Below, in pieces: positions 4,856 through 12,754 of a stretch of 15,119 nucleotides of DNA. The stretch is taken from assembly GCA_020428185.1 (NCBI GenBank), contig JAGQNH010000079.1, positions 1 through 15,119 on the forward strand, written 5' to 3'. The notes beneath the pieces are model-generated. The model did no database searches. It was not told the origin of the DNA and worked only from the letters and a program-made list of their open reading frames with translations. Origin of the DNA: Candidatus Saccharimonadota bacterium (GTDB lineage Bacteria; Patescibacteriota; Saccharimonadia; Saccharimonadales; Saccharimonadaceae). Within the stretch, counting starts at the first letter, position 1, and each line of letters starts with the position of its first letter. Both the position numbers and the translations under genes were made by a program.

Positions 4856-6277
4856 TTACGCGTATTCCCATACGCTACCATCGGGAGTGTCTCTGACGAC
4901 GATACCCTGGCTGTCTAGTGTTGCTCGTAGTTCGTCTGAGCGAGACCAATCCTTGGATTGCCTTGCATGTTCTCGTTCTTTGATGAGGCTCTTTTGCTCA
5001 TCTGATATATCGGGAGTTGTTTGTAGCAATTGAAGACCAAGCATTTTGTCTATGGCCGAAAGTAGATCGACGAGTGCCTGTTGATCGATTGTGGCAACGC
5101 TATGTGCTTCTAGATTCGAGAATGTTTCATCGATTATTCGAAGCGCTTCGGGTGTATTCAGGTCGTCGCTGATTGCATCACGGATTGTGTCAATCGACTG
5201 AAGAGATGACAGCTCTCCATTGTGCGAGTATGTCGTTTGGTGGCGCAGTGCAGCAATAGCACGCCAGTGCTGTAAGCGATTGTGCGCGGCCTGGGCGTTG
5301 TCGATGCTAAAATTGGTTGGCTTGCGATAGTGAGATTGCAATACGAGTAGTCGAAATGCTAGTGGATCGATAGTGTTGGCAAGCAGATCTGCAAGTGTGA
5401 AGAAGTTTTGCTCGCTTTTTGACATTTTTTTGCCATCGACGAGTATGTGTTCGTTGTGGACAAAGGTTGTCGCATAGGTCGGATCGTCATGACCCGCTGT
5501 GCTTTGGGCAATTTCATTTTCGTGATGAGGAAATGCAAGATCAATACCGCCAGTGTGTATATCAAATGGTTGACCAAGCTCGAGACGACTCATGACCGAA
5601 CATTCAATATGCCAGCCTGGCCTGCCATGAAGATCGTGGCCGTCGAGCGCGAAATCCCATGATGGCTCGTCGTCCTTTCGTTTCTTCCATAGTGCAAAAT
5701 CATGTGCAGATTCTTTGTCGTATTCATCGTTGTGAATTCGCTCACTACTCGTGTTGTCTTCTGTGATTTCAACAAGTTGCCCGTATTTTTTGCCTGATTT
5801 TTTGTAGGCATCGATATTGAAGTACACACCGTCATCCGAGATGTATGCAAAGCCCTTTTCGTGGAGTTCGGTAATTAGTTGGCGCATGCCTTCGATAGTC
5901 GAATCATCCGCCGCTTTGATAAATGTGAGCGCATCGATATCATTGCCAATTGCGCGCATGTCACTAAGAAATTGATCGCCATATTTGCTTGTAAGATTTT
6001 TGAGTGCATCGGCTGGTCTATCATCGGGAAACTCTTCTCGACTGCGACGAATTGTTTTGTCGTCGATGTCCGTGAAGTTCATGACATGCTTGACACTAGG
6101 GTAATTTTCGGCCAGAGCTCGCCGTAAGACATCGGCGACGATGAACGCACTGAGATTGCCGATATGCACGTGGTCGTAGACGGTCGGCCCGCAGCTATAT
6201 ATAGTCACTTGCTCAGGATTAAGTGGGCTAACTTCATCGATGTTTTTTGTGAGTGTGTTATGTAGTGTGACTGTCAT
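4856..6277 (-). CDS. cysS: Cysteinyl-tRNA synthetase
   Basis: A class Ia aminoacyl-tRNA synthetase of 473 aa, close to the usual 460-ish length, that charges tRNA-Cys in the cytoplasm. The catalytic-site signatures are HIGN (38-41) and KMSKS (284-288). The four zinc ligands that read the cysteine thiol are all in place: C29 in YSCGP, C226 in HIECS, H251 and E255 in HHENE. MNFTDIDDK, GRPGWHIECS and FDIHTGGIDLAFPHH are textbook CysS blocks, and the DALR/anticodon-binding region ends in a short domain finishing WEYA. The start overlaps the end of the upstream DHH gene by 20 nt and has no strong SD, which points to translational coupling. A new promoter for a minus-strand mini-gene lies 2 nt past its stop. 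Confidence 0.98.
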   Translation of the reverse strand: MTVTLHNTLTKNIDEVSPLNPEQVTIYSCGPTVYDHVHIGNLSAFIVADVLRRALAENYPSVKHVMNFTDIDDKTIRRSREEFPDDRPADALKNLTSKYGDQFLSDMRAIGNDIDALTFIKAADDSTIEGMRQLITELHEKGFAYISDDGVYFNIDAYKKSGKKYGQLVEITEDNTSSERIHNDEYDKESAHDFALWKKRKDDEPSWDFALDGHDLHGRPGWHIECSVMSRLELGQPFDIHTGGIDLAFPHHENEIAQSTAGHDDPTYATTFVHNEHILVDGKKMSKSEQNFFTLADLLANTIDPLAFRLLVLQSHYRKPTNFSIDNAQAAHNRLQHWRAIAALRHQTTYSHNGELSSLQSIDTIRDAISDDLNTPEALRIIDETFSNLEAHSVATIDQQALVDLLSAIDKMLGLQLLQTTPDISDEQKSLIKEREHARQSKDWSRSDELRATLDSQGIVVRDTPDGSVWEYA

Positions 6278-10279: not shown

Positions 10280-12754
10280 CTAGAAATCTTTTCCTAGACT
10301 ACCGGTGCGATCAATACTATATGCAGCGTCTTGTCCGAGTTTGAGGACCATTTTTTGGAGTGCGCTTTTTGGAAAACGTGAATCCAGGTATGGCGTATGT
10401 TTGCCAATATCAAATCCTTTGTCATCGCGAAAGCCGTGCTCTGTGCGGAGTTGTTTGTCGCTGAATGGACCATCGGGGATCTTGTAATTATTGATTGCCT
10501 CTTCGCTAATAATCTCGATGCGAGGGGGCTGTCCAGGTGCGAGATGTAGTGCGACAATCGAGCTTGCAGAGCGAAGCCCTCTTTCGTATTCAAAGCCAGT
10601 GATACCATTGAGCGATCCGGCACCGACGTATAGTTTGTTACCGCCAAGGACATAGGACGCATGATGGTAGTGGCCGAAGATGCCGACATCAATATCTTTG
10701 CGAACTTCACCTAGCCCATTTGTTTGATTGAGTCCAGTGAATGCAGGTGGTTGGCCGCCCGTGCCGCGTCCTGCGCCGAAGAAATGACTAAGGCTGACGC
10801 CAAGTTCGCCGATACGAAATACAGTCTCATATGTCTTGAATGGTTCGCCTCGCGATGTGACGAGTGTATCCTGGATTTGTACACGATTTCGTATTTCGTT
10901 CGGAGTAAACCCTCGGGATGCATACGCTTGTTTGTATGGGCCAATAATTGGCTCGAAAAATGAGTAGCCATTCCACTTTAGTGTGCCGCTATTGTATTCG
11001 TGATTTCCGATAGTCGCCTTGATGACAAGATTTTTTATCTGTTCTTTGGAAAGTTGGTCAAGTGATTGTTCGACCATGAGTCGTACGAATTCAAATTGCT
11101 GATCCATCGCACCTAGGCCAGTTCGGCCGCTTTCGCGGTTGAAGTCAGAGTAATTTCGTCCTTCTACAGTGTCGCCTCCGAGTGCTACGTAGACAACGCC
11201 GCGCCCAAGTCGACGATTGATCATGTCGAGTTGCTTGAGCTGCAAGTCTGGTCGAGATGCAATATTGCCCGCCTGCCAGTCACACTGCAGCATGACAGTG
11301 ACAGGCTGATCGAGACTTTCACATACTTCCATAAGGTGCTTGTTGTAGATTGATACGAATTGCGTGCCGTCGTCTAATCGTTCGATAGATGTTGCGCTGG
11401 CGGGATGGAAGCGTCGCCGGCCGAGAATTTCTCGTCCTGCTTGGTTGGCTGGTGATGTCAGTACATAGCCTTTTGACCTCGCGGCCTTGCGTGTATCTTG
11501 GAAGCTACCGATTGAGTGAATTGCTTCATTATTGATGCCGAATACGCCAGCGGCTTCTCGTTGGCCGGTCATGATGATGTTGTCATATGAGTCTTGTCCG
11601 TCGGCGGCAAGCTGTTTGCGTATTTTGGTGGGTGCGCTGAAATAATTTGATACTGGTAATTTTGTTGTCTGGAAACGGTGTCTGATGAGATCGGTATATT
11701 GGCGTCCGCGTGTTCGTGTGCGTAGCTCGAAATCTTCAACAATCTGCAATGAATCGCTATCTTTGAGTGCGTGCATATCGAGAATCATGCGATGTTTTGC
11801 GGATAATCGTTTACCCTGTGCTTGCAGCTTGTACGCATCATAGAGAATTTCGCGTTCGGGAAGTTCGAAGTCTCCTCGTGCGATATTGTGACGTAAACGT
11901 GTCAGTTGATCTGTAATTTGTGTGCGATCACTATCTTGTAGGGACTCGTCGTGCAACGATTGTTCGAGTGACGATGCAAGGTTGTTTGCGATGGCAGTGA
12001 CTTGGTCTGCTGTTCGTAGCGCCCTGCCACTTCGAATACAATATGGAAACGCAACTTCTTGTGTGAAACGATAATATTCGGGCCAGTTTGGATTTGCTTT
12101 TGCTTTTTCTAGTCGCGAAACTTGACGTCGTACGTCATCGCTTTCTTGATTCTCGCGAGCATGTTTTTTGGCGAGCTGGTGCATTTGTTCGAATGCCTCG
12201 AAGGTCATCTCTTCGACGATATCAGTATCGTTATCGCTCATACTGTAGACAATCGGTACGCCAATAGACTCTTTGAGCTGGTCTAGTTTTGCCTTGCCAT
12301 GATAGAACTGTTCGTCGAGAGTTCGAAGGCCGTTTTTGAGCATCCAGCGTGAATTTTTTTTGCGACCACCAAAATCACCCATGTAGAGACCGGTCACAAT
12401 GATTTGATCGGGCTTTTGTTCTTTTGGTAGTGAGCTAACCTTTTCGACTACTTCATTGAAAAAATGATTGTCGCTGAAACGACTACCGACGAGAAGGTCC
12501 GCGAGAAAGAGTGTGTGCTCGGACTTTTGGCGACCACGACGGCGTTCGATAGCCTGAATGTCGTCGACGGTGACATCTTTGTCCATGATGTCGTCGTATG
12601 ACAAATTGCTAAAATCACCTTTGTTGGTCAAGTAGTCGAAGGCATTGAGGGCTTTGGGATCGAGAGTTGGCTCCTGTGTATTTTCGTCGTCATGTGATTC
12701 GGATGAATTCTCCGCACTTATAAACCTGCCGCCTTTGCCCCTCAACCGTTCCAT
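10280..12754 (-). CDS. Large tandem metallophosphoesterase protein with an inactive first domain
   Basis: An 824-aa soluble protein. After a polar tail of about 75 residues (R-G-K-G-G-R-F-I-S start, acidic linker) comes a calcineurin-like scaffold without ligands: LADLLVGS (84-91; DxH reads D-L-L), GLYMGDFGG (122-130), SDND (173-176; for GNHD) and GQRE (397-400; for GHxH), with a helical insert at about 180-360. A second, largely intact metallophosphoesterase follows: CDWQAGN (491-497), GGD (526-528), GNHE (583-586), H657 and GHYH (694-697), with YVGAGSLNG closing the sheet. Motif I of this domain reads D-W-Q, not D-x-H. Such enzymes cut phosphodiesters with two metals, so nuclease or nucleotidase activity is likely but unproven. 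A GGGGG SD lies 4 nt before the start. The gene sits between dnaB and the GT39-like gene. Confidence 0.85.
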   Translation of the reverse strand: MERLRGKGGRFISAENSSESHDDENTQEPTLDPKALNAFDYLTNKGDFSNLSYDDIMDKDVTVDDIQAIERRRGRQKSEHTLFLADLLVGSRFSDNHFFNEVVEKVSSLPKEQKPDQIIVTGLYMGDFGGRKKNSRWMLKNGLRTLDEQFYHGKAKLDQLKESIGVPIVYSMSDNDTDIVEEMTFEAFEQMHQLAKKHARENQESDDVRRQVSRLEKAKANPNWPEYYRFTQEVAFPYCIRSGRALRTADQVTAIANNLASSLEQSLHDESLQDSDRTQITDQLTRLRHNIARGDFELPEREILYDAYKLQAQGKRLSAKHRMILDMHALKDSDSLQIVEDFELRTRTRGRQYTDLIRHRFQTTKLPVSNYFSAPTKIRKQLAADGQDSYDNIIMTGQREAAGVFGINNEAIHSIGSFQDTRKAARSKGYVLTSPANQAGREILGRRRFHPASATSIERLDDGTQFVSIYNKHLMEVCESLDQPVTVMLQCDWQAGNIASRPDLQLKQLDMINRRLGRGVVYVALGGDTVEGRNYSDFNRESGRTGLGAMDQQFEFVRLMVEQSLDQLSKEQIKNLVIKATIGNHEYNSGTLKWNGYSFFEPIIGPYKQAYASRGFTPNEIRNRVQIQDTLVTSRGEPFKTYETVFRIGELGVSLSHFFGAGRGTGGQPPAFTGLNQTNGLGEVRKDIDVGIFGHYHHASYVLGGNKLYVGAGSLNGITGFEYERGLRSASSIVALHLAPGQPPRIEIISEEAINNYKIPDGPFSDKQLRTEHGFRDDKGFDIGKHTPYLDSRFPKSALQKMVLKLGQDAAYSIDRTGSLGKDF

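Follow-up and report, generated by a model that had tools for sequence, protein, structure and literature searches.

What does a protein do that carries two metallophosphoesterase (MPE) domains in a row, when the first of them lacks most of the residues that such domains use to bind metal? This question is raised by a 15,119-nucleotide stretch of DNA from a Candidatus Saccharimonadota bacterium (contig JAGQNH010000079.1; the whole stretch is called the window hereafter), in which one gene encodes an 824-amino-acid tandem MPE whose first domain was described as "gutted" in an initial annotation made from the sequence alone. Structure models showed that the single chain holds two MPE folds, and comparison with its relatives that the first fold is without the canonical two-metal site in all 120 aligned sequences (120/120 rows). 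We give an even chance to the reading that the protein is an accessory, metal-dependent phosphodiesterase built as a pseudoenzyme–enzyme tandem. The gene and its two domains are placed as follows.

10280..12754, minus strand: gene for the 824-residue tandem MPE, with an ATG start at 12754 (open reading frame list and translation)
11315..12562, minus strand: degenerate first MPE domain (pseudo-MPE), which contains a large helical insertion, residues 65-480
10400..11323, minus strand: second MPE domain, predicted active, residues 478-785

The relatives were collected in three protein searches, which returned 52, 54 and 14 proteins, with about 8,000 candidates scored in each; where they bear names, these are Candidatus Saccharibacteria, Saccharimonas or plain "bacterium". 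All residue counts refer to 120 aligned rows, namely the window protein and 119 relatives, with its own database copy (P0005) excluded, the G275 protein (locus L024) outside the counts, and the first two genome relatives (36% and 27% identity) represented by P0057 and P0114. In a tree of 26 of these rows (midpoint root, for drawing only), the group from the 14-protein search formed a well-supported far clade, and the window protein lay inside a supported clade within the remaining rows. The motif positions of the first domain read as follows.

12491..12499, minus strand: DLL at the place of DxH, residues 86-88 (86 is acidic in 119/120, 88 is His in 0/120)
12386..12394, minus strand: TGL at the place of GD, residues 121-123, placed by strand order (Asp at 123 in 0/120)
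12227..12238, minus strand: SDND at the place of GNHD/E, residues 173-176 (His at 175 in 0/120, Asp176 in 120/120)
11783..12235, minus strand: helix-rich insertion between the GNHD and His-motif strands, residues 174-324 (DSSP on models)
11678..11683, minus strand: RH, residues 358-359 (Arg in 120/120, His in 118/120), His359 corresponding by strand order to His657, the lone His ligand
11555..11566, minus strand: GQRE at the place of GHxH, residues 397-400 (Glu400 in 116/120, Gln in the other four)

At the remaining ligand positions of this domain the canonical residue is likewise mostly gone, with Asp86 found in 24/120 rows, Asn174 in 39/120, His398 in 1/120 and His400 in 0/120, so that two of the eight canonical residues are retained in 64 rows, one in 54 and none in two; no row holds the two-metal ligand set. 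Because His359 occupies the place of His657 and is retained in 118 rows, one canonical ligand survives. Leu123 (GD) and His359 (lone His) were placed by motif and by the order of secondary-structure elements (for His359, E352-358 versus E651-656), not by superposition. Four residues of the domain are invariant, Arg358, Asp176, Gln149 and Glu300 (each 120/120). The altered motifs first read in the window protein are D86-L-L88, S173-D-N-D176 and G397-Q-R-E400. The comparison of orthologues that the initial annotation had proposed returned no row with an intact set of first-domain ligands; the observation is sound and, judged by the alignment, more general than that annotation could know. The word "gutted" is right for the two-metal site, yet the region is under selection.

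The second domain presents the opposite state.

11273..11281, minus strand: DWQ, that is D-x-Q replacing D-x-H, residues 492-494 (Gln in 120/120)
11171..11179, minus strand: GGD, residues 526-528 (Asp528 in 120/120)
10997..11008, minus strand: GNHE, residues 583-586 (Asn584 and His585 in 120/120)
10784..10786, minus strand: H657 (120/120)
10661..10675, minus strand: GHYHH, residues 694-698 (His695 and His697 in 120/120)
10352..10372, minus strand: conserved C-terminal element PKSALQK after the second domain, residues 795-801 (Lys796, Ala798 and Gln800 in at least 90% of rows)

Seven of the eight canonical residues (Asp492, Asp528, Asn584, His585, His657, His695 and His697) are kept in all 120 rows, and the sole loss, identical in every row, is that of the DxH histidine to Gln494. 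The initial annotation had recognized GGD at 526-528, GNHE at 583-586, H657 and GHYH at 694-697, all of which we recovered, and had left Q494 of D492-W-Q494, as well as the conserved R358-H359 of the first domain, unmentioned. Re-reading of the translation showed its motif readings to be correct throughout, including PDQIIVTG at 115-122, YDNIIMTG at 390-397 and GINNEAIHSIGS ending at 417.

Structure models and fold searches gave an MPE fold for both halves, as the initial annotation had anticipated. The predicted full-length model (824 residues) has a pLDDT (predicted local distance difference test) of 86.1 and a pTM (predicted template-modelling score) of 0.87, and that of domain 1 alone 90.8 and 0.89, respectively; by reading of the model, the main secondary-structure elements of the two halves correspond in order. 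Since the pTM reaches 0.87 over 824 residues, the model suggests that the two halves pack in a fixed way. DP1, the small subunit of the archaeal DNA polymerase PolD, ranks first for both halves in the VIA fold search, and Foldseek places it first for domain 1 (9f2a_A, E 6.9e-05).

An internal duplication of the MPE domain is likely, the alternative origin being a fusion of two old MPE copies. A profile comparison of half against half with 106 rows was marginal (probability 11%, score 31.1 versus 25.8 for the best of 40 shuffles), and residues 75-195 alone gave 29% and a score of 30.2 versus 20.7 for the best of 30 shuffles. When six domain-1 segments were slid without gaps over residues 440-824, segment 79-106 fitted best at 485-512, the homologous register (first of 358 offsets), segment 138-162 (the GLRTLDEQF part) at 542-566 (the GLGAMDQQF part; first of 361), and segment 116-162, which contains the latter, at 520-566 (first of 339). 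Other comparisons gave less support: the profile evidence weakened once the 14 most distant rows were added (2.7% with 120 rows, the score of 25.7 being barely above 23.7, the best of 100 shuffles); residues 340-450 failed to beat their own shuffles (21.1 versus 21.4); and segments 116-128, 166-180 and 388-420, three of the six tried, missed their register. Duplication is therefore argued here from the shared fold and from the local matches of segments 79-106 and 138-162.

Pfam, NCBIfam and PADLOC gave no usable name for the tandem protein, the best Pfam rows, PRP8_domainIV and Metallophos, both being sub-threshold. With PF00149, P0001 falls below the cut-off (11 bits), P0101 above it and P0105 barely above it; in the window's own genome (G000, 75% complete) no PF00149 match was found at E <= 0.001, the same search being positive in 14/14 control genomes. 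The phage "exonuclease" profiles phrog_284 and phrog_7339 match the second domain: phrog_284 matches P0001 with E 1.6e-11, its best stretch covering just residues 519-593 against profile positions 178-249 of 398, and P0110 matches phrog_7339, "DNA repair exonuclease". A tblastn search of P0001, P0110 and P0101 against 50,697 phage records gave no match, none of 45 pattern matches on viral contigs proved to be a relative by tblastn, and a sequence search of the PDB with a 15-row profile returned one chance row only (E 2.2). In a literature search at the level of titles and abstract openings, where absence is not proof, neither the tandem protein nor the architecture of a dead–live MPE fusion was found described, and a review of jumbo phages (PMC7824862) does not bear directly on either. 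In P0101, a tandem relative of 913 residues, residues 88-126, within an N-terminal extension, weakly match a resolvase-type helix-turn-helix below the cut-off, possibly a DNA-binding add-on.

The tandem gene is sporadic in Saccharibacteria and stands at differing loci. Counting the window's own genome, a tandem match was found in 6/61 genomes of relatives, 6/392 of the order, 5/392 of the class and 2/379 of the phylum. Its place in the window between dnaB and ybaB-recR had been taken as a hint of DNA processing. Among same-genus genomes, dnaB is present in 9/9 and its downstream side is readable in seven (not counted are G002, where the contig ends, and G008, where dnaB is split); there a PMT_2 gene follows next in 6/7, counting open reading frames of at least 70 amino acids, and the tandem gene in 0/7, so the position is peculiar to the window among the same-genus genomes compared. 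Three of these genomes (G003, G007 and G009) carry the tandem away from dnaB, and at other loci it is flanked by greA and the gene for a class II tRNA synthetase (L012) or adjoins NUDIX and CorA genes (L020). The positional hint therefore does not hold, and a DNA role is now reduced to the fold likeness to DP1 and Mre11 and the phage "exonuclease" profiles; the initial interpretation as a whole is partly supported. In the seventh readable genome (G004), a 131-residue open reading frame without a Pfam match lies between dnaB and PMT_2 (L065:1763-2158), in the place held by the tandem MPE in the window, and the dnaB/PMT_2 junction may be an insertion point. In addition, the cysS gene of the window (4856-6277) is just 40-43% identical to the same-place cysS of four same-genus genomes, which are 50-79% identical mutually, possibly reflecting in-place replacement by a foreign copy. 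Promoter and terminator scans (8 found versus 4.2 +/- 1.9, and 5 versus 2.9 +/- 1.5) were not used as evidence.

Nine tandem loci were read (the window, L010, L012 and L020-L025), and in four of them (G009, G007, G053 and G177) a gene for a winged helix-turn-helix (wHTH)-NUDIX protein stands divergently beside the tandem gene, separated from it in G177 by a short open reading frame of 145 amino acids. The five others are without this regulator, one of them (L025) having just 606 bases upstream, and in G000, G003, G275 and G027 (69-85% complete) the best NUDIX matches were 8.7e-19 or weaker and were not orthologues. In the three regulators scanned, the NUDIX domain begins at about residue 80 (E 1e-13 to 1e-15), and HTH-type matches, all below the Pfam cut-off, fall in the first 65 residues. 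All nine regulators carry Lys for the second Glu of the Nudix box REUxEE; an impaired box is reported as typical of ligand-sensing NrtR regulators (PMC4666351), whose domain order (N-terminal Nudix-like, then C-terminal wHTH) is reversed here. The regulator at L020:6645-7361 also weakly matches, via its NUDIX stretch, the PADLOC candidate-defence model PDC-S07 (E 1.8e-05), on which no defence reading was built.

Searching with the G009 regulator added orthologues in G008 and G002, where the slot is filled by a protein of 454 or 390 residues, a phage-type MPE with D-x-Q (phrog_20266, E 3.1e-40) and 28% identity over 71% to a metallophosphatase of Clavibacter phage CN1A. The arrangement of regulator and single-domain MPE is repeated in G293, G278 and G148.

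L063:2696-5023, L064:7824-9993 and L073-L075: wHTH-NUDIX gene and, in divergent orientation beside it, the gene for a single-domain D-x-Q MPE of phage type

A profile built from six regulators, four of them chosen as tandem neighbours, gave seven matches at E <= 1e-80 in 349 genomes of the order, followed by a gap to 1.4e-34; all seven strong matches adjoin an MPE (three tandem, four single), against none of ten weaker matches within 2.7-3.7 kb around each. With G007 and G002 added, 9/9 regulator orthologues stand beside an MPE, and, as four of the nine were picked as tandem neighbours, five of them (G008, G002, G293, G278 and G148) are independent finds. The single-domain MPE was detected in 7/392 genomes of the order sample, of which G024, G344 and G114 are without the regulator in the short loci examined. 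In an alignment of seven of eight such proteins (the weak G344 match was left out), D-x-Q and the other ligands are kept in 7/7. Comparison of the G008 and G002 proteins with the live domain of the tandem by hhalign detected no sequence likeness (0.1%), so the exchange is between two MPE families. The 6 tandem and 7 single-domain positives, each set drawn from 392 genomes of the order, share no genome, but this mutual exclusion was dropped as evidence because about 0.1 shared genome would be expected by chance at these frequencies.

In five genomes (G009, G007, G008, G002 and G003) the tandem or single-domain MPE gene is followed immediately by a gene of a further family, whose proteins have about 150-170 residues and, in the three members scanned, no Pfam match above the cut-off, the G003 member being much diverged and 150 residues long.

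L020:10217-10720, L021:8861-9376, L063:2167-2664, L064:10021-10464 and L010:9972-10424: members of the downstream family

This gene of about 165 residues was considered as a third module member and set aside, having not been found in the window's genome.

As to mechanism, we propose that the second domain would hydrolyse a phosphodiester by the customary two-metal mechanism, or by a variant of it in which Gln binds metal 1, perhaps more weakly. In DP1 the two metals are reported to have four His, two Asp and one Asn as ligands, and H451 is the catalytic residue (PMC10721889); the live domain matches this ligand set except for Gln in place of one metal-1 His. A working, perhaps altered, metal-1 site is expected in D-x-Q, since the Gln is invariant both in the tandem and in its slot partner. 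The substrate would most likely be nucleic acid, because the nearest fold to the live domain, by a clear margin, is that of the DP1 proofreading exonuclease. The first domain may be a duplicated copy turned scaffold, clamping or shaping the substrate cleft: eukaryotic B-subunits, relatives of DP1, are described as retaining none of its catalytic residues and are interpreted as scaffolds (PMC4996933), and by analogy the dead domain could serve as a scaffold in cis. Of the earlier proposal that an inactive domain is kept as a platform, the lack of a canonical metal site stands in 120/120 rows, and the platform is plausible, given the pTM of 0.87 and the invariant residues, whereas its suggested roles in regulation, dimerisation or DNA binding are conjectural. 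At loci with the regulator, expression would be controlled by the divergently transcribed wHTH-NUDIX protein, and its impaired Nudix box suggests a sensor of a nucleotide-like ligand and not an enzyme that cleaves one. More broadly, and at somewhat less than an even chance, a D-x-Q phosphodiesterase fused to its own dead twin and a wHTH-NUDIX sensor may form a small mobile two-gene module of Saccharibacteria. Either the tandem or a single-domain D-x-Q phosphodiesterase of phage type, from a different family, would then occupy the enzyme slot, which would imply that both carry out a common reaction under selection, whether on nucleic acid or on a nucleotide signal.

The choice of a nuclease over a small-nucleotide enzyme is the least certain step of this explanation. 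The live domain might instead cleave a nucleotide or small phosphodiester (a signalling nucleotide, a dinucleoside polyphosphate or an NAD-derived compound), with the wHTH-NUDIX protein sensing substrate or product and the likeness to DP1 and Mre11 reflecting a shared fold only. We regard this as rather unlikely. In its favour are the nine regulators beside an MPE (four picked so, five by search) against none of the ten weaker matches, and the Nudix box with its Lys in 9/9, impaired in the way typical of ligand-sensing NrtR regulators; for domain 1, the top Foldseek rows include LpxH and the Ap4A hydrolase SapH, and for domain 2 the archaeal phosphodiesterase 1s3l stands above Mre11 in the VIA list. 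However, DP1 heads both VIA lists, phage "exonuclease" families match domain 2, and the regulator is missing from five of nine tandem loci.

The state of the two metal sites could also be read otherwise. If the first domain were repurposed rather than dead, Asp176, Arg358, Gln149, Glu300, the acid at 86, His359 and Glu400 might form a new ligand site or a one-metal site, and their retention (120/120 for the first four, then 119, 118 and 116) is more than a plain relic would seem to need; with the bridging Asp lost in 120/120 rows and the His at 88, 175, 398 and 400 lost in at least 119/120, we consider this improbable. That both domains are inactive, D-x-Q abolishing metal 1 in the second as well and leaving a pure binding scaffold, draws on LpxH, where a His-to-Asn change at the corresponding position (H10N) is reported to lose metal 1 (PMC5016852). 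This is very unlikely, as the seven other canonical residues are kept in every row and a group in the same slot, with no detectable sequence likeness, keeps D-x-Q with the other ligands in 7/7; this common D-x-Q suggests a working subclass. That the protein works in replication or recombination together with dnaB, ybaB and recR, for which the position in the window alone speaks, is hardly credible in view of the seven readable dnaB loci without the tandem, the three genomes that carry it elsewhere and the other contexts at L012 and L020. We retain the phosphodiesterase built as a pseudoenzyme–enzyme tandem as our preferred reading.

Compared with known systems, the tandem is closest in fold to DP1, the archaeal proofreading exonuclease subunit, from which it differs in its two MPE domains (DP1 consists of OB and MPE domains), its D-x-Q, its bacterial host and an identity of about 16% over the aligned part. 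The segment preceding the live domain is a second MPE fold where DP1 has its OB domain, with no separate search for an OB part elsewhere, and the DP1 partner DP2 (PF03833) was found in 0/4 genomes, three of them at least 97% complete, the control being positive in three archaea. The Mre11/SbcD nucleases differ in that Mre11 has a capping domain and forms a homodimer in which both copies are active, partnered by the Rad50/SbcC ATPase; in the window's own genome, 75% complete, no PF00149 match turned up. The phage metallophosphoesterases phrog_20266/221 and their Saccharibacterial single-domain relatives are alike in the slot beside wHTH-NUDIX (five genomes), in D-x-Q and in keeping the other ligands, but have one MPE domain by motif count rather than two and no detectable sequence likeness to the live domain. 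Their exchange beside one regulator suggests a natural equivalence of two D-x-Q enzyme families, which opens to direct test both the nature of the substrate and the question whether D-x-Q works as a variant of the classic site. To our knowledge, inactive copies of the MPE domain occur mainly in the form of separate scaffold subunits, such as the polymerase B-subunits and Vps29. Vps29, which has a scaffold role, is small, its matched chains having about 183 residues, and carries no second, fused MPE copy, and the dead domain of the eukaryotic DNA polymerase B-subunits is a separate subunit, whereas here the dead and live copies share one chain, a pairing uniform over 120 rows that makes the tandem a compact system for probing what the dead copy does, since a simple truncation would suffice as the test.
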